Assembly (NCBI GenBank): GCA_021292105.1
Contig: CM037857.1
Location: 38,111,114 to 38,175,113 of the forward strand
DNA: 64,000 bases
Reading direction: 5' to 3'
DNA from: Anadara kagoshimensis
Taxonomy: Eukaryota > Mollusca > Bivalvia > Arcoida > Arcidae
Shown: one piece after another, positions 11,646 to 60,123 of the stretch
How positions within the stretch are numbered: position 1 is the first letter of the stretch
Layout: each line of letters starts with the position of its first letter
Program-made: the position numbers and the translations under genes
Notes under the pieces: generated by a model
What the model was told of the DNA's origin: nothing
What the model saw: only the letters and a program-made list of their open reading frames with translations
Databases searched by the model: none

Positions 11646-11783
11646 GTCGCCCACAGCAATTATTTGATATGACCCGACTACAATTTAACATGGACAGACG
11701 GACAGACAGACATTGTGATTCCTATATGGCCACCCAAACTAGTTTGCGGGGTATACGTTTGAGGGTTGTATAAATGGTTCGAT

Positions 11784-12240
11784 GTTACTAAAGTTCCCTG
11801 AACATAGTAATCTACATGTCTTAATTCACTCTGTATGTTAGTTTGTGTTCTAACGTTGGTGTTACTAAAGTTCCCTGAACATAGCAGTCTGCATGTCTTA
11901 ATTCACTCCGTATGTTAGTTTGTGTTCTAACGTTGGTGTTACTAAAGTTCCCTAACATAGTAATCTACATGTCTTAATTCACTCCGTATGTTAGTTTGTG
12001 TTCTAACGTTGGTGTTACTAAAGTTCCCTGAACATAGTAATCTACATGTCTTAATTCACTCCGTATGTTAGTTTGTGTTCTAACGTTGGTGTTACTAAAG
12101 TTCCCTAACATAGTAATCTACATGTCCTAATTTGCTCGGTTTGTTCGTTTGTGTTCTAACGTTGGTGTTACTAAAGTTCCCTGAACATAGTAATCTACAT
12201 GTCTTAATTCACTCCGTTTGTTCGTTTGTGCTCTAACATT
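11784..12240. repeat. 77-bp satellite, six copies
   Basis: Head-to-tail units starting GTTACTAAAGTTCCCTGAAC near 11784, 11861, 11938, 12014, 12091 and 12167. Two units share a GA deletion (CCCTAACAT), and the last two are the most diverged. It begins just outside the right end of the 2.2 kb element. Confidence 0.95.
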
Positions 12241-28157: not shown

Positions 28158-28163
28158 GTTTAT
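28158..28163 (-). terminator. Poly(A) signal AATAAA
   Basis: AATAAA on the minus strand, about 45 bases beyond the stop codon of the cysteine-knot exon. Confidence 0.5.
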
Positions 28164-28208
28164 TTTTTTTAGAAATACTAGCTATTTTAAGTTATTTGGT
28201 TAACTTAA

Positions 28209-28302
28209 TTAAAATTCAGAACAAAATCCGCCAAAACACCACCCACGACAACACATATCTGCATCTGTACAAGGCACGTACTCAGGAACACATCTTTTTA
28301 AA
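28209..28302 (-). CDS. Terminal exon encoding a cysteine-knot-like peptide
   Basis: A strong acceptor (ttatttctttgtttatag) opens one base plus 30 sense codons and TAA (28211-28209). The peptide reads LKR, then six cysteines spaced C-X6-C-X5-C-C-X3-C-X4-C, ending in SEF. This C-C-CC-C-C order is that of inhibitor-cystine-knot peptides and fits the cysteine array I recall for the CRP-I family of mussel cysteine-rich peptides. The Lys-Arg just before the first cysteine is a typical propeptide cleavage site. AATAAA lies about 45 bases after the stop (28163-28158), so it looks like a last exon. It needs a preceding exon that ends in phase 2, and none was identified with confidence. The microexon gene upstream on the same strand ends in phase 1 and cannot join directly. 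Biological role unknown; nothing shown here proves toxicity. Confidence 0.55.
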
Positions 28303-31486: not shown

Positions 31487-32504
31487 CTGTATGAATATTC
31501 CTAATTAAGACCGAGCGGACAGGTCAATGCTGTTTGCCTATACACATACATAGTGGGTTAATATAGTATAATCTTATAACCCAACAAAGCTTTTCGGAAA
31601 CATGCAAAGCTTGAATTTATTGTAATGGACAAGGAAGACAGTGTAAAATTCTTTCCTTATCAATAGTTTTAGTTAAACTCGCTGAACATGTTCTGCCTCT
31701 ACGCGTGCTGCTGCCGAATTAAAGTTGGATTGCGACAAAAATTATACTTATTTTCTGCACAAATAGATGCAAACCAAAACCCCAAAAAATATGTTCCGTT
31801 TTACACATGCACAACATGTTCAGTACTAAATGCATGCTGGATACCGAAAGAAGAAACAGACTGCTGTTCGACTGTATATTGTAGTTATTGGTTTCCAATC
31901 TCAATCCCATTCCCATCTGAATACAGATCAACGGCCACCAGTCCTATATCCGCACACGTTATAATGACTTAATGCATTTGTGTATTGAAGTGAATTCACC
32001 CGACGACAGCCGACGTAACTCGGATGTATCATATAATAAAGGCTTTTTTCAGTCAATAGGTCATCCATAAACTTCCTCTATACGAAACATGTGTCTTTCT
32101 AACACATCCGTTGCCTTTGTTTGATGAACGCAAGAAAAAAGAATTACTTCTTTGACAATTGCAGTAAAATTGTGAGCAACGTGTAATTGAAAACATGCGA
32201 TCTTAAATATTGTTAGCAAGAAATACTTAGAAAAATGAAAATGTGAAGCAATAAGCAGTGTCCATTCAACATATTTAAATATCAATTGAAACAATTAAAA
32301 CGTTTTACATTGATATATATATAAGCTGAAACAGTCATGCACACTTAAATAACCATATAAACCAACAACAACACAATACAGCACTACATACAAACAAAAA
32401 AGAGAAGGCAAAAATCTAGATAGTTCAAAATAGATGCAATACAATTTCCGCCGTGTACGGGCCCTGTATATTCTAAATTGAATATTAATACCTTTATTAT
32501 TAAT

Positions 32505-32785
32505 GGCCGCCATCACAGTATTGTTGATAAGTTTAGTATCTTTGAGTCTAGAATTGCCCTGGATATATTTGACGTCCAATAGTTCCATGTTCCTTTCACA
32601 CCTTTTTGATTACACACGTGTGCGGGTGTAGCTAGCTAGGAGCGCTTACCCTTCCGGAGCACCCGTCCTCACTTCCCTGCTGGAGGTTTTTGTGCCTGAA
32701 CTAACTTGTCAGTTTCAAAGAAAAGTTTTTACTTTGCTTCTGGATTGTAATTCGGACAAGGATTTGTATGTTTGGTTTTGACTAT
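32505..32785 (+). repeat. Dispersed repeat family A, full-length copy
   Basis: Runs from ATGGCCGCCATCACAGTATT to TGTATGTTTGGTTTTGACTA with all blocks in order. Confidence 0.85.
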
Positions 32786-32796
32786 ACATTTCTCAC

Positions 32797-32830
32797 CTTC
32801 TCTATACCATATTATCGGGTAGACTGGTAT
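32797..32830 (-). other. 34-nt exon-like segment with an in-frame stop
   Basis: Acceptor atttattattttcag is almost identical to those of the microexons, and the donor GAAG|gtgaga is good. Length 3n+1 would convert phase 1 to phase 2, just what the cysteine-knot exon needs, but the phase-1 reading contains TAG. Using the second AG (ATACCAG|) leaves 27 nt, phase 1-1 and open (VYPIIWYRE). Confidence 0.3.
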
Positions 32831-33680: not shown

Positions 33681-34344
33681 CAAAATATAAGATCTGTTAT
33701 TCTTAAGTTTAACCAATTTTACTGTAAGCATTGTATAAAATATCTGCATGCAGACACCGTTAACATACAATAACCTTTGTAACATAAAAATATCTAAACT
33801 GAAACTTATTATTATGAAAAGGCATAAAATAAAAAAAACTAAGATTTAATAGAAAAGGCAAATTAGGATAATTAAGGAAAACTAAACCATTAACAACAAA
33901 GATATAAGAAATTGAAAATGATGTTGGAGTTAAAAGATAAAAAAAGATACTGACGATTACTGGCATCAAAGAATGCGTACAAGACAAGTGTAATGACTGA
34001 TTTAAAACGTGTAGCTGAATAAATTTTTTGGCATATTATTTTATACTTCTTGTACAAAGCAACTTTTCCATAGAAAATATACTTCTTTTTTTGCATTTTG
34101 TTCTAACTCCTTTTGGTCTTTTAAAGTGAAAGTCAGTCTTTGTTGTAAAATATATGCTTCCCCTCTCATTGGTCCAATGTTATTTATAATAGCCCTTTTT
34201 CACATATGCTAAGTTTTTTGCATTTTCTCATTTTTGCAAATTTGTTATCAGTTTTATGAATTTGTCAGACAAATATTCATGTATCGTATCGATAGCATGT
34301 GGTGTTAATTGATAATAATAGAATAATAAAATAAATAGTTTCGC
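33681..34344. other. AT-rich stretch, nothing recognised
   Basis: Only chance hydrophobic frames on the minus strand, without usable splice context. Confidence 0.5.
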
Positions 34345-34818: not shown

Positions 34819-34842
34819 CTGTTGCCATGTCACCAGTTGCTG
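34819..34842 (-). CDS. Microexon 20 (24 nt), last recognised
   Basis: Encodes AATGDMAT. Acceptor ctttttgtag, donor ACAG|gtaaat. Here the tandem acceptor of its relatives is fixed to the downstream AG, which explains its 24-nt length. Confidence 0.84.
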
Positions 34843-37800
34843 CTACAAAAAGAAAGAATAAAATGGAATTGAAGATACGCGTTATTTAAGGGCAAAACTT
34901 GATACAATTTCAGAATTTTTAGTTTTAAGTACCTTATTTAGGTCAGTCATTGTGAAAAAAACATTTGCATGACATATGGCAGCATATTTAGTACATCAGT
35001 GGTTGTTCTTAGTTGTAAAAGATTTTGAATTTCCGAGTAAACAGATAATTACCTTATCAACGCGTAGCTTCCTGTTAAGTATCATGGCATATTTTGTTTT
35101 GATCCATATAAAATATTGATAGAGTCCATGTGAGACGTTTGACATTTTTTAACAAAAATAGACTGTTTACGCGACGACCAAATGTATAATAAAAAGCTCG
35201 AAATCTTTTTATCTTATTTCTATATAGAATATATTTACCTGTTGTTGTGTCACCACTTTCTGTAGCTGAAAATAGACAATATAACAAAACTGTAGATACA
35301 AGTCATTTAAGTAACAATACTAAAAGAATCGGTAGTTGCAAGTCCTTTGGCCAGTTTTTTTATTAAGCATCCGTGTGGTATATAACATCATCAATTTTGT
35401 ATCAGTTAACAAAATTATTATCACAATTTGTTGTGAGAAATAGAATTGTTGAATAATTGTCTACAGTTACATTATCAAAACATTATCTATTAAGTACCTT
35501 GACAATCGACTCGCACAAATGAATATTTTGTTGTTATCCATGTAAAAAATTGAAAGGGCCCGTATGAGATGATGTTAAACAATGTTTAAACAAAAAATAG
35601 GATAAAAAGTTTTATGGCCGTCATCACAGTATTGTTGATAAGTTTGATGTCTCTGTGTCCAGGATTGCCATGGATATATTTGACGTCTCATAGTTCCATG
35701 TTCTTTTCACAAAATTTTGATTACACACGTGGCGGGTGTAGCTAGCTAAACAGGAGGTGCTTGCCCTTCCGGGGCACCCGGCCTCACTTCCCTGGTGGAA
35801 GTTCACGCGTCTAACCTAACTTGTCAGTTCCAAAGTTTTTACTTTGCTTCTGGATTGTGATTCGGAAATGGATAAGTATGTTTGTTTTTGATAAATGTGC
35901 GACAACAAAATGGTAGCTCGGAATTTTTCATCTGATTTCTATATCACAGTGTGGGACCGCCGAAAACAGTTTACAGGAAGTTGCGATTGTCGAAGCTAGA
36001 GATTCCGGTTGGTATAACAACACAGTGTATCCAAACTATGGTTTTGTTGCTATTGGTTAGATATTATTAACAGAATGGGGTAGATATATAAACGTTTTCA
36101 TCAAAAATATTGTATGTCACCGGTACAAACCTTCATTAAATTCGCAGTTTATTCAAATTTTGATTTTTGCAATGCAAATCACTCGCTGTTGTGCCGAAAA
36201 CGTATCAAGGAGTCTAATAAACTGCTTCATAAATCTAAATACCTTACATTTACCTAACTATTCTATACGGATATACCTTCCATAAACATTTTATGTCAAC
36301 ATTAAAGTGTATATTCTTTCTGAACTTCATCGAGATCAAAGATAATAAACTTTTTTCGGCGTTGTCCCTTTTTTCTCGGCTGTACCGGTATTTGCAAATT
36401 CAGATTTACGTCACTTGGGATGCAACACGTTCAAGTTTATACCGTTGTTTGCTGACCCATTAGTCATAAATTCATTGTCCATAAAATGATTATGCTCTTC
36501 TCATATCATCAGATTGGTAATCTCAGTCCGACTATATGAACATGGAAAATAACTACAATAACCACAATTACAAGCCCACCACAATTCCAAAGCAACGCAA
36601 AACCTTTGAAACTGACAAAGTAGGTTAAACACGCGAAATTGCATCAGGGAAATGAGACTGTGTGCTGCGGAAAGGTAACTGTGGCGCCCCTTGATTAGAT
36701 AGGTATACCCACCACGTGTGTAATCAAAATTATGAATGAAAGGAACATGGGACTATGGGACGTCAAATATAGCCAGGGTAATTTTGGATACAGAGGCATC
36801 GTACAATATTTTGATGACGACCATAAAAGTTTTCGAGTGGCTTGATAAACCATGGCTAGTAATATGCTCAAGTCAACAACTAAGTTGGTAGCAGCTTACT
36901 TCGTTCGCAGTGAGAATAATCTCCACTATATCATATTCATTGTGAAACAAATACAACATATGGAAGAAAAACAGGAATGTTGTTGCATAGAAAAGGATTT
37001 GACAATAGAAAAAATTCAAGTCATCACGTTTGCCATACAGCTTCAGATGTATCCTTTTGTATTAGTCGCACCTTGTATTTTAAGCTAACTGGGACAGATT
37101 GCATCCGTCATATATGTATCTGTATATGAAATTGAATGATTTGGTGACATCTTTCTCTTAAGCCGATGTTTAAAAAGGTTCTGTATAAATTCTGCTTCAT
37201 ACGAATAAAGAAACAAATCAGCAAGCAGTGCTGCACAGTTTGTTCTTATTGGCTTATTCATAGTTTGTTGGAAAATTATAATATCAAACACAACATTAAT
37301 TTTGTCTATCAAAAACTATTACATTGCTACTATCTTCAGAATAATTTTTTTATTGGAACCTGCATGGTGCTTGATAAAATAGCCAGTTAGATATAGTGTA
37401 TCTTGGCTTACCTTTTTGTAAAAGAATGACTTTTAAACGTTCATTTCAATTTTAATAAGGAAGAGCGGTGTAAAGTGTAAAAAAACTAAAGGGTTTTCTA
37501 CACATATTTCGAGATGTAGACTTAGATAGAAAGACCCAGGGGCATTAACGTTCACCTGAGGATATATCAAATACCAAAGTGCAATGGTCAATTTTATTAA
37601 TTACAAGGACGATGATATTTGCAAATTAAGTATAACTTGTAAAGTCCTATCGTGCATCTAAAATAACCGAGGTATGCTGAGTATTTGTACAGCTAGAAAA
37701 AAGTACAAAGGTAAACAACAAAACCATTTTAATATTCTTAAACGTTTGCGACCTTGACCTCTGAATCTATGACCTTCATCGGTATATAAAAAATTGTAAT

Positions 37801-40800
37801 ATACATGCCCATTCAAAAAGTTTATAGTTTTCGAGATAATTACCATTTCTTACTATTCGTTTACATTTCTGACCTTGACCCTCAACCTTCATCTGTATAT
37901 TAACATAACCGCTATGTCAATACCTATAATGTTCTAATAATACTCATGTCTTACAAAAAGTGATATATTTTAGATTCATAATCATTTCAGTATTCTTTTG
38001 CATCTGTAACCTTGACCTTTGATTTTCACTATTTCTCTCATACGGGGCTCCACGGGGACATAATTCCTTCATTTCTGTAAATAATAAAACTTTTTGCCCA
38101 AGTTTGATAGTCAGTAAGTTTCAAATAGCCAGGTAGTTTTGGAGGAGACTATTAAAATGCAAAATGTTAAAGCAAGACAGACGACGGACGGTGACCCATC
38201 GCAATAGCTCACCTGAACTTTCAACCTGAAATATTATAAAGTTTTTACTTGTTATTTTTATTTTAACGGGGATTTTGGAATATGAAAAGTATGTTTTTGT
38301 CTATAGAGTCCTGGTCTTGCATGCATACAAACTCAAAGTTAATTCCACACACAACCAAAAGTTTTCTCAATGTACTTTCATAAACTTTATTTAACTTAAC
38401 TCCAAATATTAGCTTTCACTCAAATATTTGCAGATCTTAAGAAAGGCAAATTTCAGAAAAGCTCGAAAGTTTGATGTCACAAGTGTTATGCAAGCGAGGC
38501 CCGTTACATAATTCGGCAGTTATTACTGGGATTGTGGTCAAAATAACAATTATTTCGTGATAATTCTTCATAAATATAAAATCATGGGTCAATACATTAC
38601 GAAATACTGACCTGAAAATGTTGGGTTAGGGCAACTAAATACAAACAAAAGTTTATCCAGTCAACATTGATATGGAAAAAAATCGCTACTAACGTAACAG
38701 TTGGTACAGCAATTTTAGCAAGCAACTGTACAGTAACGAATCCTTGACAACGGTCAGAAAATCGATTGTTGCGAGTTTGAAATATGTCAGTTCATTATCA
38801 ATACGATTGAAAATAGAAACAAAATCATTGATGGTGAAGCCTATAACTTAAACGTTAGAATAACGCAATTAGTACCGTTAACAAACAATTTAGTTGATCA
38901 AATGAGTGCACTTCGCCGTTCAGGTTGGTGATTTACCATGCTATTTTCATAATGCTTTTTCAATCATTATTATCATATTAATAATTCATAAAACTTGTTG
39001 AATATCATAAATGTATCTGTTAAAATATTTAAAAACTTTATGTATCGGATTTAACGCATATGAATGAGGGAAAGTTGGTTTATCCATCGCGTTTTACTTG
39101 ATCATCTCGCCCGGCATTTTAGATTGTCCGCTTCGACAATCGCAACTTCCTGTATATCGTTTTCGGCGGTCTCACACTGTGTATATAGAATATATATTAC
39201 CTGCTGTCGTGTCATCAGTTGCCGCTACTAAAATATAAAAGAATATAATTAAATTGTATATGTGCGTCATATAAGAACCAACATTGATACATATAAACAA
39301 AATTGAAAGTTGTATGGTTCCCTTGCCAAATTATATGAAACAAACGGATTGTATATGACATCATATTACCCAATTTTAATTTTACTCGTGGCGTCTGTAG
39401 CTAGCTAAACAGGAGTTGCTTATCCTACCGAAGCACCCAGCCTCACTTCCCTCGTGGAAGGTTACGTGTTTAATCTAATTTGTCAGTCGCAAAGTTGATA
39501 CTTTGTTTATAGATTGTGATTCGGACATCGATTAGCATGGTTGTGTTTTTATTTTAAAACAAATAACTCACTACTTCGTATTAGGACAAAAATGTAGCTT
39601 TCTGTTAAGCATCGTTAAAATGTACCACAAATTAGGGTTTTTGTTGTAATGCATATAAAATTACGTTAAAGCAAAGGAACCATCGAAGGTTTGAGCAACA
39701 ACAAATAAAACACATTACTCGTCCATATTCAACAAAATGAATAATTAAAACAGATAGGTCTGAATACTGAACATTACTAGATAGTACTGGACGATAGTTA
39801 TATATATTAAACAGAATTCTATGGTTACTTTAGTACTTTTGTTGATGAATTATATATACAAGAACATATATATTTAAATGTACAATATAAAATTGTCTTA
39901 ACGGAAACTAAAACAGATTACACTTAACTTTGAAAATGTTTAAAATACAGAAAAATATTTTTTTAAACATAGTCAATTTGAAAGGGTTAAATAGAATAGG
40001 AAACGAATACTAAATAAAAGGCAAATCAACTAAAAACACAAATAGTTGCTAGACTAAATGGAAAACTATAAAAAAAACTTTGTTTAAAAATCAATAAGTC
40101 ATCCCAACTGACTTAATTAAAAACATTTTATTAAAGTTTTTAAGTTCTGCCAGTAAAGTAAATATTTCATTATCACCATTATTTATTATGGAACGATTTG
40201 TTACCTGTTGTCGTGTCTACAGTTGCTGCTACTGAAAATAGAATGGAAATAAAATGGTAATTATACTACATTTAAGGATCATAAAAGGTACATATAAGAA
40301 AATCGAAAATTTTTGGTCTCTTGGTTTGTTCATAAGAAAGACTTGTATGTATTGATTTGTCGATGATAAATGTACAAAAAATGACTTTTTTACCTGTTGT
40401 GTCGTCGATTTCTGCTACTGAAAATATAATTAAAATGAAATTGTAATTACACGACATTTAAGGATCATAATAAACACACAAAGAGAAAAATCAGAATTTT
40501 TAATCCATGTTGGTTTGTTTTTAGACAGACTCCTACAAATTGATATACTTATAAGATTCTATGAATTGATTTGTCGATGATAAATGTTTAACGAATAATT
40601 TGTTTACCTGTTGTGTCTTCAGTTGCTGCTACTAAAAATATAATTAAAATAAAATTGTAATTATACTTCATTTAAGGATCATATAAGACACATATTTTTA
40701 GTCCCTTGTATTGTTTATAAGAAAAACATATATGAATAGATTTGTTTATGATAAGTATGAAGCATATATATCTATACATAGCTTCTCCGTAACTATATCT

Positions 40801-43800
40801 ATTGTATAAAACACGTTCATGTAGGCAACATAAAAACATACAAATTAACATAAACAACACAGAATAATTAGATCTTTGTCTAAACTAATCCATGTCACAT
40901 TACACTTAGACATCGACTAATCCGAGCAAAGTATTAGAAGGCATCAAATCCAATTGAGAGAATAAAATAGCACAAATATGAAAACTAAACCAGGGCAAAA
41001 AACTAAAAACCACAAATGGCTGCTAGAGTAACAGAAAGACTATAACAGCATTATTTTATTAAAATCATTTTTTACAATCGATATGAAGTTCTGCAAGTAT
41101 AGTATACATTTTGTTATTTAATGTGGAATGATTTGTTTACCTGTAGTCGTGTCTTCAGTTGCTGCCACTAAAAATATAATTTAAATGAAATTGTAATTAT
41201 ATGACATTTTAGGATCATATTAGACACATATAAAACAATCGAAAAGATTCGTATGAATTAATTTGTCGATAAAAAATGTATAAAAAATGATTTGTTTACC
41301 TGTTGTTGTGTCTTCAGTTGCTGCTACTGAAATTATAATTTAAAAAATAAAAAAAATTGTAATTAAACGCTATTTAACAATCATATTAGACATAGAAAGA
41401 AAAATCAAAATTGTTTGGTCCTTTGGTTTCGTAATTAGAAAAACTGGTATGAATTGATTTGTCGATTATAAGTATGAAGCATATACATATTAAACCTGTG
41501 CATGTAGACAACATAAAAAAAAACACAATAACATGAACAGCATAGAATAGTTAGATCTCTCCCTAAACTAATTCATATCACACTACACTTAGGAAATCAT
41601 TAAATCACAGAAATGTATAAAAAGGCATCAAATCTATTTGAGAGGATAAAACAACACAAAAATTAAAACTAAACAGAAAGCACATAAATTATAAATATAA
41701 ATGAATACCTGTCTAAAAGGACAAAATATTTTGAATTATTGTTATTTAAAGGTAAAGGTCTTTATGTATATGTTTCAATATGAACATTATTATTCATGCA
41801 ATATTTTTACCTGTGGTCGTGTCGGCAGTTTCTGCTGCTGAAAATATACAGAACATCATAAAATTGTAATAATACGACATTTAAGAACCATAATAATTAC
41901 ACTTAAAGTTGTTTCCCTTGGCAGTTAATATGAAACATCCGTATAATATTTGGCATTTAATATATATTGTTTCAAACAATTATGATTTGACAACGTTGTG
42001 ATATTGAAGTATTCAAAGGCCAACAACATTGAATTCATATCAGGATAAAGGCGGTAGCTCTCTGATAAACAACTTGGCACAGTCGACTGCAGATTAGATA
42101 TTTTATAGTTATCTGTGCGAAATTATTTGATAGAGTTGATTGAGGTGTTAAGAGAATTTACAAAACAAAACAAGAGGATGTTTGAAGTTCAAAGAGCGAT
42201 TAGCATATATATTTGCAAAAAGCAAAGCATGACATATACAACATCGAATTATGAGATCATTGAATTTAACTCAATTTAAATATCTTACAGTATTATATTT
42301 TCTCTAATTGGTCAATTTCAGTAGTTTATCTTACAATAAACAAGTTTTTTGCTATTCAATATAACATTTTCTGATTCCGTATCGGGGTGTCTGATATTTT
42401 TCCGTATCAGGCATTTGCCTGATACAAAGTCGCGCGCGTTAGTTCACGGACTACTTCAGATTCATAGTAATGGCGTCATCAGATTGGAATGTAACGTAAA
42501 AAAAGATCGGGGGTTTCCCCTAGATTTTGTCATGTCAAAACAAAAGAATGCAGTCACAAACTACGATTAATCGTAAAAATGTCTATCTTAATCCGAAAAT
42601 TAAGCGGTAAAATGTAATTTTCGGCAATGACGGTAAGTTGATTTGCATCGGCAGTACATAACATATTCAATGCTCTTCAATGACGATTCATCTGTCAAAG
42701 TAAATACACAGTCAATACATGTGAATGTAAACTACACAAAAGACTCAAAACACTGTCATAATCATACGTACTAATAACAAATAATTGTCACTTTCATTTT
42801 CCAAAGATTCCATTGTCTAAAAGCTTGTTGATCACACGTCCAATTAACTGGCGTCCGTTAACCGTGATCCGTGTTTTATTCTGTGACGTTACACACCCCA
42901 GATATTCATCCGAAAAATAGTATGTACTATGTTTAACTTTATTTAATAAACTAAATTTTTTGCTAAATTTGAAAAAATTGTAAGATAAAAATATCATTTA
43001 TATCTTATGTATGTACGGGATTTGTATCAGAGTCTCGTCTTGTCCCCATGACACATCACGACTTGCCGCTCAGCGGCTCGTCGTGATATCGTCATGGAAA
43101 CAAGACTCGTCATGGAAACAAGAACAAGACGCAGACCAGTATTCGGCCGTAAAATTGACTTTTCGTAATCTCCTAGTCTGATTCATCTAGCCGATCAAAA
43201 GATTACCCGTCCTAGACAAAAGTTGGAAAATATACAAATTGATATTGCGAACGATGAGCAGCAAAACGTTTTCCGTCTGTAGAAACCCCAGGGCTAAAGG
43301 CGATTTTGGTCCCCGTTAATCAGAAAAATCCACAGACAGTGAAGTGAAAATAATAAGAAGCTACATAAAAGTATCAAAAGCTTTACCAACTTGTTGAACA
43401 TCTCGAATAATGCAAAAATAAAGATCATTGTGCTGATTACACTAAAATTGGACTTTGAATGCCATTTTGGAGTATAATACTAGTAAAAAAGCAATTGCTT
43501 CTTTTGATGCATTTGGATACGGACCTGACCAAAATAATGTTTGGTCTGGATGTATATTACTTTAGAAACAGGAAACCATTACAGCACAGACCATAAAATT
43601 CAAGTTAAAAGAACAAAATAGCATAATAAAGGAAAATTCATCAAAAATCAAATTAGCTGATTTCTGCCATTAAAGCCTACATTTGATTAAACATTATCAT
43701 ATATGGAATATCTTTACCTGTTGTCGTGTCATCAGTTGCTGCTACTGAAAATAAAAGAAATCGTTTTATAATTAAACCCCTTTTAACTGTGTAATTAGCA

Positions 43801-46800
43801 CGCCTAATGGTCTCGGCCAGATCCTTATAATCATTTCAAAAGACAATAACAGTAATTCTAAACTATATACTGCTACTGGACACAGAAATCTTTAAAATCT
43901 TTAAAAGTTGAATCAAAAACAAACAAACCATGAAATAACATCGTTTAAAGGAAAACTAAACAAAAAACAAATCATTGCAAATGAATCCAGACTAAAAAGA
44001 AAAATATAAACATTTTCTCATTAAAAGCATTGTATTAAAACGTATATTAAGTTCTGTCAGTAAAATTTACATTTTATTATCACTCTCATATGAAATATGT
44101 AGATAATAAATCAAAATACCAGTAGTCGTGACATCAGTTGCTGCTTCTGAAAACAAGTATAACAAAATAATTATAGATCATTTCAGGTAATATGTAGTAC
44201 ATTTTTGGAAATAAAAGATAAACATTAAGAGAATGTAGAATTGTGTTGGTCTCTTGGCAACCTTATATGAAATATCCGTATGAAAGATCCGTATAATATA
44301 TAGCATCGAGGATATATTGATCGTAAAACAAAAATGCCAATTCTTGTCCAAATCGCAAACCTGAAGCAAAGTTAAAAGTTGGAAGTTTGATTTACAAACA
44401 TATGGTTGCACGTTATAATAAGAGATACTTAATTTTGAGTAAAATGCCATAATCAAGGAAAGTTCAACAAAAGAATAATCAACTGAAAATATATATGGGT
44501 GCAAGGCCATAGGAAAACTTAAGCATTATCTCATAATAAGCATTTGATTAAAATTTATATAAAAGCTGGTAGTAAAGTAAATTACGTTATAATCATTATC
44601 ATATATTGAATATGTTTACCTGTTGTCGTGTCATCGGTTGCTGCTACTGAAAATTTTAAAAATTAATTAAATTGTAATTAAAAGACTTTTAACGAAATAA
44701 TACAAAACATATTGCAATTAACCAAGAAAGCATAAAAGAAAAGAAAATCATAAAAAAAAAACATAAAATATATTTGAAGTGGTAACATAAAATACTCAAG
44801 GAAACTAAACAGAACACCTGCGTAAAAATCAACATTTACCTCAAATATATCGAAGTTAATTTTATATACAGAAACATCATACGTTTACAATATTGAGATA
44901 CTGGCTAAAAAGTATTTATCTTATTTCTAAGCAGATTGCTTCGTTGTAAATTTTGGGTAAGTTGACAAAATAAATTTAACAGTTCATTACCACAATATGT
45001 GTGTGTGGGGGTGGCTGGGTGTGTTTACCTGTTGTCGTATCATCGGCTGCTGCTACTGAAAATAACCGAATACAATAAAGTTGTAATATTATTGTGCATG
45101 TATAACATGTATGCATGTTAATAACATAAAAATACAATTAAACGTTTAACATAAAAATTATAACATGAATGCCACTTTATACTAAAAAATTTACGCTACA
45201 CTTAAAAAGAACAAAAGCGGTACTAGAAACACTCAAACATCAGTTATCAAAAGTAACTGTATGTACTGTATAAATGTGCGTATGGAGACAAAATGATAAT
45301 ATATAATAATAAATAAGGAAAATTTAATTTTATTAAAATTAAAAGAAAGTTAAAAATACAGAAGAGAATACAAATAAAATTATGATCAACTTCAAATATG
45401 CTGGAAATTTGAAAGGGTCAAATGCTATACTAAATGTTAAAAAGTTAAAAGCATTATTTCATAAAAAGCACTTTATCAAATGTATTGTAAAGTTCTGTAA
45501 GTAAAGTGTATATTTTCTTATGGTCATTACAATATATGGAAGATATGTACCTGTTGTTATATCATCAGTTGTCGCTACTGTAAATTAAAAATATATATAA
45601 CATTGTAATTACACGATATTTAATGGTTATAATACATACACATAAACAGAATTAGAAATAGTTTTGGTTTCTTTGCCAGTGTACTAAAAGATACGTATGA
45701 TGTAGGCCATTAAGTTTTTTTAAACAAATAATATTCAAATATCACGATTATTATATATGGAATATGTGTACCTGTTGTAGTTTCATCAGTTGGTGCTTCT
45801 GAAAATAAAAAGGAAATTGTTATTATACGCCTTTTAACTACCGAAGTAGATATGCTTAAACAGAATTTATAAATGATTGCGTCCCTAAAGAATAACTCAC
45901 TGATTTCTTACCAGAATGTGAACAGTAGGTTTCTGTTAAAAATCTTGACGAATCTGAATTTTGTAATTCGAAAATTGTTATTCGTGTAAAATCAATCTAC
46001 AGAACCGTTTTGGATGTTGATGCAATTTATGTTTGAACAAAACAATAGGAAATTTTATTTAACAAACATAACAGTGTGTATTAAATAATATATGTAGATG
46101 TATCAACAAACAAATGTATAAAATCATATTATGACAATGTACCCTTATACTCGGGAAAGCATAAGCGCGCAGAAACCATAAAAAGACATAAATTCCATCT
46201 GAAAGGTTAAACAGATAATAAAGGAAAAGTCAACAAAACAAGAAACACAATATTGATGGATACTAGTTTAAAACGAAACAACATAAGTATTATCTCATTA
46301 ATAACATTTGATTTAACATATATTAGATGTTCTGCGAGTTAAGTATATATTGCATTATCAGCATTAAATATATGAAATGTGTTTACCTGTTGACGTGTCA
46401 CCAATTCCTGCTACTGAAAATAAAGAGAATTCAATAAAATTGTTATTGTATTTTTTTATAAAAAATATATATAAAATTAAACAATGCAATTATTTCTGAG
46501 CATGTTTTAAGTTTGCAGCCACAGACGGTCGTTTCGGAATAAAATTCCTAATCAGTATTTCTCGTACCAAATTTGTGGAAACCAATTTATTTTGAATCTG
46601 TTGAAATAAAAACAACTAGAAAGCACAAAATTTATTTTTAAACATTATTTTGAAAGATTTAGCATAGCTTACCAGTAGTTATTTGATAAGTTTTGAAATT
46701 TGAAATTTACAAAGCAGATAATGTATGTGAACAATGTTTATCCGACAAAGTAAATGATTTATTGTCACCATTACTTTACTGTATATTAAAAATGTTTACC

Positions 46801-49800
46801 TGGCGACGTGTTTTCAATTTGTACTGAAAAGAAAAAAATAGCATAATTAAAATCATTCGCCATTTTAGTATCAAAATATATCTACATCAGAATTGATAGC
46901 CGTTGTTTCGTTGTGTTAACCATCTGTATGGTATAAGGTATGTTACTTTTATGATATGACTATAAATATCCTTCATTCTGATTGCTTCAGGTTGTCTTTA
47001 ATTCGATCTAATAAAATTCATATTTTATGAAGTCTCTCTTAAACATATTATTACTAGTATTACCGCGCGTTAAGTCGCGAGAGGGTAACAAAATGAACGC
47101 GGAACTGAAATTAGATATAGTCAAAACAAACATACTAATCTATGTCCGAATCACAATCCAGAAGCATAGTAAAAACTTTGGAACTGACAAGTTAGTTTAG
47201 ATGACAAGTTAGTTTAGATACGTGAACTTCCACCAGGGAAGTGAGGCCGGATGCTTCGGAAGGGTAAGCACCTCCTGTTTAGCTTGTTTAGTGTAATCAA
47301 AATTGTGTGAAAGGAACATGGAACTATAAGATTTCAAATATATCTAGGACAATCCTGGACACAAAGACATCAAACTTATCAACAATACTGTGATGACGGC
47401 CATAAAACTTTTTGAGGGCCTTCATAAGCCTGGGCTTGCAATATCTCCGAGTCAACAATTAATTTGCAAGTAGCCTATTTCGCTGTACAAAGTCCCCGTA
47501 GTGGGAACAATCTCTACCATAGCGTATTAGTTGGGTAACAAATACACCATAAGCAGGAGAAACCGGTATGTTGCTGCATAAAAAGGAAAGTTGACAATAG
47601 AAAAATTGAAGTCATCACGTTTGTCATAAAATTCCAAATGCAGCCTTTCGTGTGCGTCATAATTCAGGTAAACGTCTAAATATGAAGGAGAACTTGAGGA
47701 ATCAGTCGTGTCTTTTATTTCAAGCTCACTAGGATAGATGACATTCACAAAGTTTCCAAATTTAGAATTGTTATGAGACAGAACGTCATCTATATATCTA
47801 CATGTTGAGATGAATGAATTGGCGACAGTTTTCTCTAGATTTAACAAGGTTCTGCATAAATTCTGCTTCATAAAAATAAAGAAACAAATCAGCAAGCAAT
47901 GGTGCACAATTTGTACCCATTGGTATACTGATTGTTTGCTGAAAAACTATATTACCAAATACAACAAATATGTTATGTATATAGGAAATTTCCATTATTG
48001 GCTTGGGATTATTGCACGACCTGACGTATCAAGAAACCCAAAAGGTGCAATGTACGTCGTCCCAAAATTGTTGATAAGTATGATGTCTCTGTATCCAAAC
48101 TTATTATGGATATATTTGTCGTCGCATAGTTCCATGTTCTTTTCATTTCATTTTTCAATTTGATTACATGCGTGGCGGTTGTAGCCAGGAGGTGCTGACA
48201 CTTTTGGCGGTACCGGTCTCACTTCCCTAGTTGAAGTTCACTGGTTTAACTTGATTTGCCTGCATTTTTCAAAATTCTTATTTTGTTTTTGGTTTTGAAT
48301 TTGGACAGTTGATATGTTTGTTTTTGATTAATCAATATATCTGTGATTCACAATTTTTAACTGTGGTTTTATGAGAATATTTTTACCCTATTTTTGTTGA
48401 CAAATTTACTTACCAAATCTTTCTCATAATACAATTATCTATTTGATGTTTATAAATAATAAAAACATCTGTATATTATCTGTAGAACTTGTTTTAAAAA
48501 TATACGATTTAAAAAAATATGTACAACTGAACTTTTAAATTAAAAGTGATAATAGAATAAAAAGGATAAAAATAATACATATGTTAAATTATTACATAAA
48601 ACAAATTAAAATTAATATAACATTATGTCTATTAAATATTCTATCGTAATTACATTTACCTGTTGCAACGCCATTACAATTTTCTGAAAATAACAAAAAG
48701 TATAATAAAATGTTAATTATGCCTCAATAAAGCACAAAAATAGATATAAATATAACGAATAAGTAGCATTTTGGTTCTTTAGCCAGTTTATATACAACTT
48801 CCCTATGATATAGGATGATTATAAACGGATATCTGATAACACTTTTGTTTTAGGCAAAGTGTTTAGGGTTTCCTTCGCTTCCGAAGCTCCAGGCCTGATA
48901 TCCCCAGGCCTATTGGGGGTTCAGGTGTTTAACCTAATTTGTTAGTTTTGTTTGTGGGATTGTGATTTGAACATGAATTTACTAATCAAATACAGTTATC
49001 TTATTTAATTTAAAAACAAAAATCACTACTTTTATAGCAGTTATCTGTCACTCATCTTAACAATCGTTACAGATTGACCTTTTGTCATCCATATAACATA
49101 AATCGTTTGATGTTGAACATTAAATTTGGGCATTACATAGAAAATATGATCCACAATAAATCAACAGGAAGGTGTACATCCGTAAATAACTAGGCGGTAG
49201 GCATAACTTTTAAAAAGTAATATTTTTATTATTTGGTAAAATATGGTGGTGAAAAGCCGTAAAATCTTCTCGAAAGAGTGATATAGCATCAGAGAGGAAA
49301 ACTAAATAAAAGACAAATAAACTCGGAAACACAAAGGATGATAGACTATATACAAGGAGAATATAGTTATCAACAGTTATCCCTTTAAAAGTCAGTAATT
49401 TATTATGAAGTTATGTATGTAACGTAAATGTTTCTTTATAATCATTATTATATATGGAATATGTTTACCTGTTGTAACGCCACCAGTTGCTACTGGAAAT
49501 AAAAAGAAATAAATAAGAAAATTGTAATTAAACATCTCTTAAGGACCATTACATATGCACATAAACATATTTGCATATCGTAGCTAATATTTCTCAATAT
49601 CATTATAACTGATTCTATTAATTTTACAGCACTAGGCGGCTGTTTCGGGATAAAGATGTTGAAATGAGAAAAATAGAACCAAAATATATTTTACCAAACC
49701 CCCTAAGGAAAAATAATATAATCAATATTTGATGGATAACATAGCAGAACTTGTGCGGTCAAAAATAATCATTAAAAACCGAAAGGCCACACACCTACAA

Positions 49801-51116
49801 AGTTGATTGAAAGAGAACAGGAGTTGATACGATGTGCATAACACCTTTTATTTATCACCATCGATATCCGAGTACAGTATTAATACATGTATTGGACAAA
49901 TTGTCCGGACAAAATTGTGAAGCACGGGTGGAAGGACGGAGGGAATGCATAACTATCCCCTCGTTGAATACTCCACGGAGGAGATAAAATGAATGCTGAA
50001 CTAAATAGGAAATTTCAAAACATTATTAATCACTATTATCTCAGTAAACAAACATGTTTAAAGTTCTAAACACTAAGACTTGTGTTTGATTCCGTCTATA
50101 AAGTATTTTATTATTAATTGTCATTATTTTATTATGTAATGAATACGTTTACCTGCTACCGTTTCATCAAACTCCACTGAAAATAACAGAAATAAAATAA
50201 AATTGTTCTTATGTCTCATTTAAAGATAAAAATTAAAATTAAAAACAGTTTTTTGGTCTCCTAGTCACTTATATGAAACATATGTAACATATGAAACATA
50301 CATATGTGATGTTATAACATCGTTTATATATTCATTAAATTGGGATTGCACGTTGTTGTAAGAGAGTTATCATCGACAGTTACTTAATTATAAATAAACA
50401 ACTTGCTATATTCAAGGATTATTCGCCTGTCTTGAAACGGGGCATCGGTTTCCGAAGTTCTGTGTGAGACATTCGAGCAAAACAATAAAATGTTTGAGCG
50501 ACAACAAATTGGAGAATTCGGCGACATATTTTGTAAGGAAGATGAGAATTTGGTAGTCCAGTTCTAGATCTATTCGATTTGCCTACATATTACTTGTTTA
50601 ATTAAACTAATAACTAAGTACTTTATTGACATGTGCTACTTTTGTATTGTTATGAATATGAACATTGAGTTTAAAAATAGCAGAGAGAACAATGTAGTAG
50701 TAGAACTGTGTACATGGAATCTATAATCTTCGATATGATTGCATACAGTAAAGACCTTAAGTTTAACACTAAACTGTCGAATTCTGCAGTTCAGTCGGCC
50801 CCTCGTTAGCTATGCATCAGAAGCTTGTCGGTAACTAGCTATCTATATCTCGGCCACTTTGCAGCAATCGTGTTAGTTCAATGTTAGACTTTTAACGAGT
50901 CTGTACTACCACTTAACATATTACCACAAAGTTTCATTTCAGTAAAGTATTAAAAACATTATTTTCGTTATTTGTCATATTTTTATTTTTTGAATTTTAC
51001 ATTGGATCTGGAGAATAATAAACGCACATACCTTTTTGGTGTTCAATGGTAATTTTAAACGACACCACACTCTCTGTTACCACAATCAGTAAAACTGTTG
51101 ATAGTATAAATTTCAT
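34819..51116 (-). CDS. Secreted Thr/Asp-rich protein encoded by a 20-microexon array
   Basis: The central gene of the window. The first coding exon (51116-51032) gives a signal peptide. Twenty exons of 24 nt (seven) or 27 nt (thirteen) follow down to 34819, each bounded by a pyrimidine-rich acceptor (typically attttcag) and a GT donor (typically gtaaac). All are phase 1-1, so each adds eight or nine residues without shifting the frame. The deduced product to that point is about 201 residues: signal peptide, nine linker residues, then variants of VAATDDTTT, acidic and Thr-rich with one cysteine (microexon 3). The family is not recognised. Plausible roles are a mucin-like or mineral-binding secreted protein, or an acidic propeptide for a C-terminal mature peptide. 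Introns of 132 to 3935 nt share homologous flanks, so exon plus intron was duplicated as a unit. The 3' end is unresolved: no convincing in-phase stop exon was proven below 34819. Confidence 0.87.
35239..35265 (-). CDS. Microexon 19 (27 nt)
   Basis: Encodes ATESGDTTT. Its downstream flank is the paralogous empty site for the 3.2 kb insertion. Confidence 0.84.
35608..35893 (+). repeat. Dispersed repeat family A, full-length copy in the array
   Basis: From AAGTTTTATGGCCGTCATCA to AAGTATGTTTGTTTTTGATA. It is among the least diverged copies and lies in the intron between microexons 18 and 19. Confidence 0.88.
36530..36835 (-). repeat. Dispersed repeat family A nested in the 3.2 kb element
   Basis: A reverse copy with CCAGGGTAATTTTGGATACA and GGGACGTCAAATATA; the centre is partly diverged. 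Confidence 0.8.
36930..37312 (-). pseudogene. Reverse-transcriptase fragment nested in the 3.2 kb element
   Basis: The minus strand reads TNCAALLADLFLYSYEAEFI, the palm segment before the catalytic loop. In another frame, further downstream, PFLCNNIPVFLPYVVFVSQ is the post-catalytic segment. The catalytic Asp-Asp loop itself is lost and the frame is broken repeatedly. Confidence 0.7.
37530..38225. repeat. Dispersed element with CACCTGA ends
   Basis: Starts near GACCCAGGGGCATTAACGTT and ends CATCGCAATAGCTCACCTGA. It contains several TGACCTTGACC blocks. A related start lies at 18903. Confidence 0.6.
39201..39227 (-). CDS. Microexon 18 (27 nt)
   Basis: Encodes VAATDDTTA. Its donor lies only about 20 nt from the end of the 3.2 kb inserted element (35945-39181). 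Confidence 0.86.
39372..39552 (+). repeat. Dispersed repeat family A, 3' two thirds
   Basis: ACTCGTGGCGTCTGTAGCTA through CATGGTTGTGTTTTTAT, between microexons 17 and 18. Confidence 0.8.
40205..40231 (-). CDS. Microexon 17 (27 nt)
   Basis: Encodes VAATVDTTT. Confidence 0.88.
40394..40417 (-). CDS. Microexon 16 (24 nt)
   Basis: Encodes VAEIDDTT. Confidence 0.85.
40608..40631 (-). CDS. Microexon 15 (24 nt)
   Basis: Encodes VAATEDTT: the 27-nt form minus one ACA codon. Confidence 0.88.
41141..41167 (-). CDS. Microexon 14 (27 nt)
   Basis: Encodes VAATEDTTT with different synonymous codons. The intron before it, 132 nt, is the shortest in the gene. Confidence 0.88.
41300..41326 (-). CDS. Microexon 13 (27 nt)
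   Basis: Encodes VAATEDTTT. Confidence 0.88.
41811..41837 (-). CDS. Microexon 12 (27 nt)
   Basis: Encodes AAETADTTT. It follows a 1880-nt intron that holds the hairpin-rich segment 42404-43100. Confidence 0.86.
42404..43100. other. Hairpin-rich, GC-richer insert in an array intron
   Basis: A perfect palindrome GTATCAGGCA-TT-TGCCTGATAC (42404-42425) near one side. A nested hairpin (ATCACGAC...GCCGCTCAGCGGC...GTCGTGAT, 43055-43087) followed by a duplicated CATGGAAACAAGA lies near the other. Probably a mobile insertion, but its ends are not clear. Confidence 0.45.
43718..43744 (-). CDS. Microexon 11 (27 nt)
   Basis: Encodes the consensus VAATDDTTT. Donor ACAG|gtaaag. Confidence 0.9.
44120..44146 (-). 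CDS. Microexon 10 (27 nt)
   Basis: Encodes EAATDVTTT. The donor is the weakest of the series (ACTG|gtattt), so inclusion may vary. Confidence 0.8.
44620..44646 (-). CDS. Microexon 9 (27 nt)
   Basis: Encodes the consensus VAATDDTTT. Confidence 0.9.
45029..45055 (-). CDS. Microexon 8 (27 nt)
   Basis: Encodes VAAADDTTT. A (GT)n tract lies just beyond its donor. Confidence 0.88.
45551..45577 (-). CDS. Microexon 7 (27 nt)
   Basis: Encodes VATTDDITT. Separated from microexon 6 by only 194 nt. Confidence 0.87.
45772..45798 (-). CDS. Microexon 6 (27 nt)
   Basis: Encodes EAPTDETTT. The first base pair of the exon is AA rather than TA, so the split codon is Glu and the tandem acceptor is lost. Confidence 0.87.
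46387..46413 (-). CDS. Microexon 5 (27 nt)
   Basis: Encodes VAGIGDTST. The first 27-nt member in transcript order. Confidence 0.86.
46505..46640 (-). repeat. Dispersed repeat family B, reverse copy
   Basis: CAGACGGTCGTTTCGGAATA and CCTAATCAGTATTTC identify it. A shorter scrap is near 49630-49700. Confidence 0.65.
46800..46823 (-). CDS. Microexon 4 (24 nt)
   Basis: Encodes VQIENTSP, with an NTS glycosylation sequon. Acceptor ttttcttttcag, donor CCAG|gtaaac. Confidence 0.82.
47125..47412 (-). repeat. Dispersed repeat family A, full-length reverse copy
   Basis: All blocks are in order. A 17-base ACAAGTTAGTTTAGA(T) duplication lies inside near 47190-47220. Confidence 0.88.
47526..47995 (-). 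pseudogene. Reverse-transcriptase fragment with intact catalytic loop
   Basis: The minus strand carries IPMGTNCAPLLADLFLY, then CRYIDDVL (the (F/Y)-X-D-D catalytic motif), then DKRDDFNFSIVNFPF. These lie in two overlapping frames, and a single-base loss after NFPF shifts the rest (FLCSNIPVSPAYGVFVTQLI) out of frame. It belongs to the same retroelement family as the pieces at 5540, 27080 and 36930, possibly Penelope-like; the class is uncertain. Confidence 0.75.
48063..48330 (+). repeat. Dispersed repeat family A
   Basis: A forward copy with TTGTTGATAAGTATGATGTC, GCGTGGCGGTTGTAGCC and TATGTTTGTTTTTGATTA. Confidence 0.8.
48660..48683 (-). CDS. Microexon 3 (24 nt)
   Basis: Encodes ENCNGVAT, the only array member with a cysteine. 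Acceptor tgttattttcag, donor ACAG|gtaaat. Confidence 0.8.
48855..48985 (+). repeat. Dispersed repeat family A, diverged 3' part
   Basis: Weak match from CTTCCGAAGCTCCAGGCCTG to GGGATTGTGATTTGAACATG. Confidence 0.55.
49469..49492 (-). CDS. Microexon 2 (24 nt)
   Basis: Encodes VATGGVTT. Acceptor tttatttccag, donor ACAG|gtaaac. Confidence 0.85.
50153..50176 (-). CDS. Microexon 1 (24 nt)
   Basis: Encodes VEFDETVA in phase 1-1. Acceptor ttattttcag, donor GCAG|gtaaac. One of the diverged 5' members. Confidence 0.82.
51032..51116 (-). CDS. Microexon gene, signal-peptide exon
   Basis: 85 nt, ATG to donor AAAAAG|gtatgt, leaving one base (phase 1). It encodes MKFILSTVLLIVVTESVVS, a good signal peptide, then FKITIEHQK. 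The ATG directly follows an acceptor (ttacatttttcag|ATG), which implies an upstream non-coding exon. Confidence 0.88.
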
Positions 51117-58000: not shown

Positions 58001-60123
58001 TATTCTTGACAGGGACATAAAATGCTATTCAATCAATCATGATTTATTATTTTCAGAGACTTTGTAGAAAATCATTTAATAGAGTTTACAAGAGCTAATC
58101 CAGGTGTTGTGGTGTATTTAAAACCCCGGAGACACAAATCGCCTAGAATTGTTGGTACATATTGTAAGTATATACAATACTAAAATGCAATATATATAGA
58201 TATGTAATGCATTGTACAGGGGTTAAAAATTCCCTGGCTCTAAGGTCCTGGACCTACTGCTTTTATCTTTGGACCCTTGATATATAAACTGTAAAAGTCA
58301 GATGGACCTGCCGTTTTTTTATATGGTCAATTCTACTTTTTCTATATAAAAACGTGATTACACCTAAACTTAATATCAATGTTAATATTGAATTTTCCAA
58401 ACTTAATGTGGGACCTGCCAAAAATAAAGGCAAAAGGTCCTGGACCTTCCATAACAAAACATAGTTTTGATTGGTTTGTAGACGTAATGCTGTGTTTCCA
58501 TTTCCACTAGTCAAAATTGCCATTGGCCACTCACTTGTGAGAAATTCTGTCAAAAAGTTACCCATTTCAGCAAATTTATAAAAAATACTATTAAAAAACC
58601 AATATTTTCACATATTTTGGAAATTGGGCTACAAAAATTTCAAAATTCATCTTGGAAGCCTATAGTAACCAAAACTGAAATGCAGTATATAATAATAATT
58701 TACTGCAATGTTGAAGTAATGTACTACAATACATAGTGCAACACATCATATGAAACAGTGGTGTCAGTAAAGCCAATGAGGAGACAAAAGTTGTCTGCTA
58801 CTTGTTAAGATTTGCATAAAATTTGTCACCTACTTTTACTAAATATGCTTACTTTAGGAGATTTATCTTCTACTTTAAAATTTACTGAAATAAATGAAAC
58901 TAAAAATAAATGCTGTTTCAGATATAAGTCAGACTATATTTATAAACTGTCAAAAAGCCATGTGAGCATTAGGCAAGGTGCGACATGTGTGTGTGCCATT
59001 AATGCCAAATGTTGATTTCACCTTCAAAGCAGATTTTAATGAATCATTTTCAGAAGCAGATTCAGGTAATTACAATTTGTGTTTGTTTTCAGAGTCCCAA
59101 TAGCAACTGAAAGTAGGTTACTGGATCACAGTTGTTCAAAACTCATTTTCTTAAAATACATGTCTATTTTTATTATTAAAATCAACTTCACAAAATGTAC
59201 CGTGGTACAAAAGATAATGTCATAATCTCAAGCTTGACTGGGCAAAATATTAAAACCTACAGTTAAACCTTGATAAATCACCACCATTTGTTTGGAAAAA
59301 ATTCTGTGTTATAAAGGGGTTGGGCAATAAATCAAGGGAGAAATATAAAGAAAGATCAATGGATTGTGGGACTTCAAAATAGTGTGCCGTGGCGATAAAC
59401 AAGTTCGCAAAGTTATTGGTGAACATTACTGATGGGTTTAACTGTATATATAGCCAAACCTGTCGATAAAGGCCACCCCGGGGGACCAGTAAAAGTGACC
59501 TTTATGGGCAGGTGGCCTTTATATACAGGTTCAATAATATGAATAAAGAACAACCGGGATAAAATTCTACGGGCCTTTATAAGCAGGAGGCCCTTATATA
59601 GAGGTGGCCATTAAGACAGGTTGGACTGTATACTATGATTAGAGGACAATGAGACTTTGTTTTATCTCTGTCATGGATAAGATAATGATTGGTTAAAAAA
59701 TCTAAATTACAGAGTGGTTAATTAAAACATTAATTACTGTTTTGCTTGTTGGTATTTCATATCATTAACTCCCTTTAACTTTCCTTTTCAGTAAATGGTA
59801 ACACAGAGACCATAACTGTTCACAATTCTCAGGTGGATGAAGTTTGTAAGTGGGTGGAGTTTATGAAGACCAGATCTGGTGAAAAAATAGTGAGACTTGA
59901 GAAGAAATGGCATACAGATAACCCCAGTATTCAGGGTATCTGGGACCCTACACTTAATAAACCAACATGGCTAAATGTAACAGAATTTCCTAGTGACAAA
60001 TTAGCTAAAGTGACTCCAACTGAACCATCAACGACAGAAAAATTAATGGAATTAGCCAAAGATATGAAAAATGTCAGTATATCAGACTCTGCTGCTGGTG
60101 AACCTGTAAAAGCAATCAAATGA
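54902..60123 (+). CDS. MRPL43: Mitochondrial ribosomal protein L43, three-exon gene
   Basis: A component of the large subunit of the mitochondrial ribosome, with the L51/S25/CI-B8 thioredoxin-like fold. The exons 54902-55032, 58057-58163 and 59792-60123 have phases 2 and 1 that match exactly, giving 189 residues. Family hallmarks are visible in order: [20 protein letters not shown] and SSRGMR in exon 1, [20 protein letters not shown] and [14 protein letters not shown] in exon 2, then [20 protein letters not shown] in exon 3. A Thr/Ser/Lys-rich C-terminal tail follows the domain and is longer than I would expect from the human protein. AATAAA lies 24 bases after the stop. Introns of 3.0 and 1.6 kb are loaded with mobile elements, including a foldback element in intron 1 and two abutting MITEs in intron 2. 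Confidence 0.95.
55103..55760. mobile_element. 658-bp foldback element with 9-bp target duplication
   Basis: Arms of about 290 bases are near-perfect inverse copies. They start TAGCCCGAGATTCCTCTGGC, carry a poly-T/poly-A block, and surround a loop of about 85 bases. GGGTCATAC (55094-55102 and 55761-55769) flanks both ends. Long inverted repeats plus a 9-bp duplication point to a Mutator-type (MULE) non-autonomous element. It lies in MRPL43 intron 1, and the high arm identity implies recent insertion or gene conversion. Confidence 0.92.
56160..56865. mobile_element. SINE cluster in MRPL43 intron 1
   Basis: On the minus strand two tRNA-like heads are readable near 56165-56255 and 56398-56475 (B box GGTTCGAGTCC in the second). 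A plus-strand SINE tail at 56630-56865 (GCTTGTCTGTGGCATATTGA ... ATTGCTGATGTGATGTTAAA) matches the 15.6 kb SINE. Confidence 0.7.
56866..58056. other. Remainder of MRPL43 intron 1
   Basis: AT-rich; no named repeat and no exon-like frame. Confidence 0.6.
58057..58163 (+). CDS. MRPL43: MRPL43 exon 2
   Basis: 107 nt, acceptor tttattattttcag, donor TATT|gtaagt. It encodes [20 protein letters not shown] and the basic [10 protein letters not shown] segment. Confidence 0.95.
59258..59445. mobile_element. MITE Q, copy 2, in MRPL43 intron 2
   Basis: Ends TACAGTTAAACCTTG and GGGTTTAACTGTA, with interior similarity to 23773-23963 in inverse orientation. Confidence 0.82.
59450..59630. mobile_element. 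MITE P, copy 3, abutting MITE Q
   Basis: Ends AGCCAAACCTG and CAGGTTGGACTGTA. It starts within five bases of the end of MITE Q at a shared TATATA. Confidence 0.88.
59792..60123 (+). CDS. MRPL43: MRPL43 exon 3 with stop
   Basis: 332 nt, acceptor actttccttttcag, stop TGA at 60121-60123. It contains [10 protein letters not shown] and the low-complexity tail. Confidence 0.95.

Follow-up and report, generated by a model that had tools for sequence, protein, structure and literature searches.

The best-known examples of genes composed largely of microexons come from parasitic flatworms and aphids, and the locus described here raises the question of whether a free-living bivalve also has such a gene, how it could have grown, and what it would encode. 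The locus lies on the minus strand of a 64,000-nucleotide (nt) stretch of the genome of the ark clam Anadara kagoshimensis (assembly GCA_021292105.1, contig CM037857.1, positions 38,111,114 to 38,175,113), referred to below as the window; positions given without a contig name are those of the window. With slightly better than even confidence, we read it as one gene of ~23 kb (51.1–28.2 kb, minus strand) composed of a leader exon, 20 duplicated microexons, a 34-nt exon and an exon for a knottin-type peptide with a dibasic KR site, in which the repeat would first have served as a propeptide or spacer and today would form a product that lacks the knottin. As judged by sequence, this is a bivalve micro-exon gene (MEG), probably grafted onto a knottin precursor, whose mode of growth appears to be still visible. 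The two copies still show the unit that was multiplied, the introns around it and the gain or loss of one unit, so that, in a free-living animal, the successive steps in the birth of a MEG may be traceable; the locus also suggests how a propeptide could turn into a product.

An initial annotation of the window had described a signal-peptide exon followed by 20 exons of 24 or 27 nt, each with its own acceptor and donor, and all of these were located with exact coordinates. The 85-nt leader exon (51032..51116, minus strand) encodes a hydrophobic leader that is a predicted signal peptide, MKFILSTVLLIVVTESVVSFKITIEHQK. It begins directly at an AG acceptor, which implies a 5' untranslated region (UTR) exon further upstream, and ends in phase 1. 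The microexons, 13 of 27 nt and seven of 24 nt, run on the same strand from 50176 down to 34819 and are separated by introns of 132–3935 nt. Microexons 1 to 4, of 24 nt, encode VEFDETVA (50153..50176), VATGGVTT (49469..49492), ENCNGVAT (48660..48683) and VQIENTSP (46800..46823). They are followed by microexons 5 to 14, of 27 nt, which encode VAGIGDTST (46387..46413), EAPTDETTT (45772..45798), VATTDDITT (45551..45577), VAAADDTTT (45029..45055), VAATDDTTT (44620..44646), EAATDVTTT (44120..44146), VAATDDTTT (43718..43744), AAETADTTT (41811..41837), VAATEDTTT (41300..41326) and VAATEDTTT (41141..41167). Microexons 15 and 16 are again of 24 nt (VAATEDTT, 40608..40631; VAEIDDTT, 40394..40417), microexons 17 to 19 of 27 nt (VAATVDTTT, 40205..40231; VAATDDTTA, 39201..39227; ATESGDTTT, 35239..35265), and microexon 20 of 24 nt (AATGDMAT, 34819..34842). 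In the minus-strand scan an AG acceptor and a GT donor were present in 20/20 microexons, and 20/20 were in phase 1-1, in agreement with the annotation. Each contributes a repeat of 8 or 9 residues, and their consensus, read with the preceding G, is indeed the VAATDDTTT proposed earlier, with variants throughout the array.

Splice sites were scored against a rough consensus with approximate matrices, and on this scale the scores were positive for all microexons (donors 4.3–8.9, acceptors 6.0–12.4). A NAGNAG-type tandem acceptor stands at the start of 15 of the 20, so that in-frame slips of one residue would be allowed. Because all microexons are in phase 1-1, the frame would survive the gain, loss or skipping of any one of them.

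That the array is more than a chance assembly was indicated by a leave-one-out search with nhmmer, in which a profile of the exon with flanks of 60 and 40 nt was rebuilt without each exon in turn. All 20 microexons were recovered, with E values from 2.1e-4 to 2.4e-24; the best match in the window outside the array had E 0.22. The flanks are highly variable (pairwise difference ~0.5 at many positions), and AG and GT are invariant in the 20 exons. The stop-free frame (20/20) was dropped as evidence, random substitutions having given a mean of 0.47 exons with a stop and P(no stop) 0.62. Likewise, as the microexons are homologous duplicates, their lengths in multiples of three do not represent 20 independent trials. 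No Rfam match was found in the window at the gathering threshold, and one exon pattern searched for in viral contigs gave no match. Protein searches with residues 1–60 of the repeat protein gave no homologue, the search being one that finds only relatives of similar length sharing several five-residue words.

The likeness between units continues into the introns, for instance over 359 nt at 69% between the non-overlapping units of microexons 13 and 15. Units further apart in the array are less alike (Spearman -0.36), a value as low being reached in 1 of 5000 permutations. This result comes from non-overlapping units; a first adjacency test was discarded, since overlapping neighbours had matched themselves at 100%. 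Homology that extends into introns and falls with distance shows that the duplicated unit was the exon plus intron, not an exon later split by introns, and on these comparisons the array is read as a single exon-plus-intron unit duplicated in tandem.

In the genome (1.115 Gb, 36 contigs), contig C1 has a length of 52 Mb; of ten further contigs whose length was looked up, six (C2, C10, C14, C17, C18 and C19) have 38–73 Mb and four (C20, C21, C25 and C36) less than 0.5 Mb. A COI copy on contig C4, translated with the invertebrate mitochondrial code, shows 87% identity to Tegillarca granosa and 81% to Barbatia decussata, and no more than 64% to the other named sequences among the 120 matches listed, in keeping with an ark clam or a close relative. 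A second locus of this kind lies on C1, 417 kb away. The window locus and this second one are referred to as copy A and copy B. Only the best candidates were scored, so that genome match counts are lower bounds: two for the signal-peptide exon, by DNA and by protein search alike, two for the knottin exon, and at least 22 for the unit of exon 9, all 22 of which lie in the copy A and copy B loci. Copy B has a counterpart of the leader exon (G000:C1:38579560-38579644) and 21 microexons, 20 of them paired with those of copy A and one extra. All 21 have AG and GT, lengths in multiples of three, phase 1 and no stop; the exon caller required AG and GT, and no nhmmer match was dropped on that account. 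The extra microexon is one exon-intron unit of 27 + 127 nt, and the introns that flank it, of 133 and 127 nt, are 97% alike. Hence, one unit was gained in copy B or lost in copy A.

Similarity between the copies is colinear with gaps at least over window positions 5951 to 52225, within the copy B stretch compared. The duplication also includes neighbours, a VMO-I-like gene and an open reading frame at 59.7 kb. The identities of the colinear pieces, about 80–97%, and the unequal exon number speak for a duplication rather than haplotypes.

The annotation had listed the leader and the array. Both stand, but the gene probably extends beyond them, as two probable exons with matching phases, at 32797-32830 and 28209-28302, lie downstream; neither was in that listing. 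The former (32797..32830, minus strand; copy B counterpart at C1:38565133) is a 34-nt exon with a strong donor and the top splice score among the candidate exons between 34818 and 28302, candidates being of 9–199 nt and above set splice thresholds. It is entered in phase 1 and left in phase 2, which is the phase needed by the knottin exon. In copy A it reads DTSLPDNMV and then an in-frame TAG, and in copy B it is open in the corresponding phase. An alternative acceptor that would give a 27-nt phase 1-1 exon (32797-32823) was rejected, as the frame would then stop at once on entering the knottin exon and copy B lacks that AG. A copy of an interspersed repeat starts some 10–15 nt beyond the 34-nt exon.

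The second probable exon, terminal and entered in phase 2 (28209..28302, minus strand), encodes SLKR, then CVPEYVPCTDADMCCRGWCFGGFCSEF, and then a stop. An AATAAA polyadenylation-type signal was read from the sequence 44 nt past the stop (28159..28164, minus strand). The cysteine residues form the array C-X6-C-X5-CC-X3-C-X4-C, and KR directly precedes the first of them (SLKR-C in copy A). This six-cysteine knottin-type array occurs once in the window. Among 120 dinucleotide shuffles two held any such array, and none held it together with a dibasic site and a stop. Comparison with the sequences of solved structures gave weak matches, the best being U3-SYTX-Sth1a (E 0.0084). With a limit of E 10 five sequences were listed, of which four are venom peptides and one is ADAMTS-5. 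In Pfam, Toxin_21, Conotoxin_I2 and Conotoxin were matched below threshold, the last (PF02950) with 15.3 and 16.1 bits against a gathering cut-off of 25.1. These venom and Pfam matches are largely cysteine-driven. A protein search with the knottin frame, subject to the same limit on length and shared words, gave no homologue. Both downstream exons are present in copy B in the order seen in copy A. There, however, the terminal exon (C1:38563257-38563343) has lost two bases, which puts it out of frame ahead of the first cysteine.

The repeat region of copy A comprises 173 residues, including 61 T, 36 D/E and 2 P, and that of copy B 182 residues, including 66 T and 39 D/E; neither has K or R. Assuming leader cleavage before FKITIEHQK, the mature product of copy A is predicted to be of about 19 kDa, with an isoelectric point of about 4 and a charge of about -37. 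From this composition, the chain may be expected to be disordered, acidic and heavily O-glycosylated. With a lesion ahead of the knottin in each copy, the predicted product today would be mainly the acidic Thr-rich repeat, or else both copies are dying.

A precedent for the joining of these parts is offered by the CRP-I genes of mussels (Mytilus). According to part of a published account (PMC10138031), these have four exons, of which exons 2, 3 and 4 are coding. A 5' UTR exon comes first, then a signal-peptide exon, a propeptide, a dibasic KR or RR, and a terminal exon with the cysteine array C(X3-6)C(X1-7)CC(X3-4)C(X3-5)C. The spacing of the clam terminal exon (6, 5, 0, 3, 4) fits that array, KR likewise stands before it, and the clam repeat, between signal peptide and KR-knottin, occupies the position of the propeptide. 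In contrast to the four-exon gene so described, the clam locus has 20–21 microexons and the 34-nt exon between leader and cysteine exon, and its precursor frame is interrupted, by the in-frame TAG in copy A and the frame break in copy B.

The likeness to schistosome MEGs that the annotation had pointed out is borne out for the architecture but not for the sequence features. As far as a partial account describes them (PMC10526429), schistosome MEGs have a signal peptide followed by 10–20 exons that are very short and for the most part divisible by three in length, have introns of 100 to almost 5000 nt, and give secreted products. The clam gene likewise has an N-terminal predicted signal peptide, and its 20 exons of 24 or 27 nt and introns of 132–3935 nt fall within that description. 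However, the exons of schistosome MEGs in that account are mostly of 15 nt, whereas all clam microexons are of 24 or 27 nt and are recognisable duplicates of one unit. The schistosome proteins so described are rich in Pro/Phe/Leu and Lys/Glu, the clam repeat in Thr/Asp/Ala without Lys or Arg, and where the former have a hydrophobic and aromatic stretch after the signal peptide, the latter, as judged by eye, has FKITIEHQK. Moreover, the clam gene probably has a knottin exon downstream and belongs to a different phylum. Davis et al. reportedly found tandemly repeated exons coding for repeats in Schistosoma, but of 81 nt, not 24 or 27 nt. Aphid bicycle genes, as portrayed in part of their description (PMC9168663), have many small internal exons of one phase, evolve rapidly and are implicated as secreted effectors, and one megacycle gene has >100 microexons. 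Their internal exons are almost all in phase 2, whereas the clam microexons are all in phase 1 (20 and 21 in the two copies) and encode closely similar tandem repeat peptides. The annotation knew of no mollusc counterpart, and in searches of one open-access library, as judged by titles and opening lines of abstracts, no mollusc gene of this microexon type was seen either; one title concerns an alternative oxidase of an oyster, in which an exon is duplicated.

In the course of events proposed for the one-gene reading, successive tandem duplications of a single exon together with the intron beside it would have built the array, each microexon adding 8 or 9 residues to a strongly acidic, Thr-rich chain free of K and R. 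At first the repeat would have served a secreted knottin, released by a convertase, as its propeptide or spacer, in the manner of the mussel CRP-I precursors, and different lesions between repeat and knottin would have left a secreted acidic repeat protein without a knottin. A fuller version of this history is put forward tentatively, with confidence clearly below even. It holds that the propeptide of an ark-clam knottin was expanded by unit duplication until it held at least 20 in-frame microexons, that exon gain, exon loss and perhaps splicing set how many repeats there are, and that the spacer outlived the knottin, which was lost independently in the two copies, and stays in frame as a secreted product in its own right.

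As to retention of the frame, no frameshifting indel separates the two copies in 519 exon nt (3.5 expected from ten clean introns, P 0.03), and two exon pairs differ in length by one codon. The GT donors of the 20 paired exons are unchanged at all 40 positions; in the introns, 17 of 200 sites from +7 to +16 differ. In exon 5 of copy B the upstream AG is lost, and the next AG, 3 nt on, preserves the frame. These observations are moderate evidence that frame and splicing were maintained after the copies separated.

Several results weigh against the one-gene reading or against a protein held under selection. Between copies A and B the 20 exon pairs show 10.5 synonymous and 18.5 non-synonymous changes, and the ratio of the non-synonymous to the synonymous proportion (pN/pS) is 0.66. 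Across the array it is 0.91 (0.54 for core exons 5–18), and a value so near 1 means that the amino-acid sequence as such is held only loosely. Exon divergence between the copies (29/516 sites) is close to the 4.9% of the ten clean introns, each at least 90% identical between copies, that served as the neutral yardstick. A figure of 10.8% over 15 introns (four of >1000 nt were skipped) was rejected for this purpose, as some of those introns were poorly aligned, and with the clean introns in its place an apparent excess of exon conservation disappeared. Counted by eye, 4 of 34 sites in the 34-nt exon differ between the copies, as in neutral sequence. The knottin exon is identical at 92/92 aligned sites, but so in part are its surroundings (87–100% in 100-nt windows). 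Neither copy has leader, repeat and knottin in one uninterrupted frame, and the lesions differ. Since the whole block was duplicated colinearly, the joint occurrence of leader and knottin exons at both loci is not independent proof of one gene. Four stretches of ATG plus hydrophobic codons between 34.8 and 28.3 kb (33966, 32272, 31351 and 31321) are possible alternative first exons for the knottin, and the same interval holds one other open candidate exon that passes from phase 1 to phase 2 (33775-33838), with weak splice sites.

The alternative that survives best, to which we give perhaps one chance in four, is a free-standing secreted repeat protein resembling a MEG, whose frame would end by design within the 34-nt exon (copy A) or just past it (copy B), the knottin exon being a relic, an exon of another transcript or at most 3' UTR. 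The end DTSLPDNMV before the TAG continues the repeat style in its D/T/S/P composition, and the TAG lies 5 nt before the end of the 34-nt exon, so that decay of the mRNA would not be expected. Frame and splice sites are intact in 41/41 microexons, whereas the putative linkage to the knottin has been lost twice. An end by design fits less well with the strong donor of the 34-nt exon, with its exact match in phase to the knottin exon, with its being open in this phase in copy B, and with the KR site directly before the first cysteine.

It is less probable still, though not by far, that the locus is a decaying pair of pseudogenes, a former knottin precursor with a microexon propeptide that was disabled in both copies and is now drifting. 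The different lesions and the exon substitution rate close to that of clean introns are as such a history would leave them, and the mussel CRP-I family is known, in the part of its description cited, for pseudogenes and presence/absence variation (PMC10138031). Yet the 41 microexons of the two copies show no frameshift, stop or lost donor, frameshifting indels are absent where 3.5 were expected (P 0.03), and for the sole lost acceptor the next AG stands in without a shift of frame. A tandem repeat or mobile element that codes for nothing and has splice-like ends by chance, to which intron flanks shared among the exon units and interspersed repeats inside the introns might point, is very improbable, as the exon 9 unit is confined to two loci (22/22 among the best candidates scored), AG/GT ends are invariant (20/20) amid far more variable flanks, length changes are codon-sized only, and a signal-peptide exon in matching phase lies upstream.

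Downstream of the one-gene candidate lies the VMO-I-like gene, predicted to be secreted, with its first exon at 24806-24988 on the minus strand and a Pfam VOMI match below the cut-off (E 0.0076). It was duplicated along with the microexon gene (96%, G000:C1:38559192), and a third match of 70% lies 466 kb lower (G000:C1:37669499). The open frame on the other side, at 59779-60120 on the plus strand, encodes 114 residues, has a second copy at 94% and no Pfam match; a guess that it is a mitochondrial ribosomal protein was dropped, as nothing in Pfam bore it out. Further signs of segmental duplication were seen at G000:C1 about 37.67–38.60 Mb, where sequence at 37.898 Mb matches, at 91%, a portion of a stretch at 38.301 Mb.

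Among the repeats of the window, the segment 55102-55761 matches its own reverse complement (692 aligned bases, 87%) and is perhaps a fold-back element. Tandem arrays lie at 60976-61558 (83-base unit, 99% matches), 11783-12237 (77-base unit), 9666-10264 (158-base unit) and 10739-11630 (473-base unit). Interspersed repeats occur in introns and beyond, at 47123-47946, 36580-37295, 35604-35897, 6557-6849 and 32500-32786. Part of them contains what may be a reverse-transcriptase-like frame, although a Pfam scan of 47530-47946 found none. Elsewhere in the genome, four matches to mitochondrial COI lie within 50 kb (G000:C4:4487676-4537603) and may represent nuclear insertions or mis-assembly.

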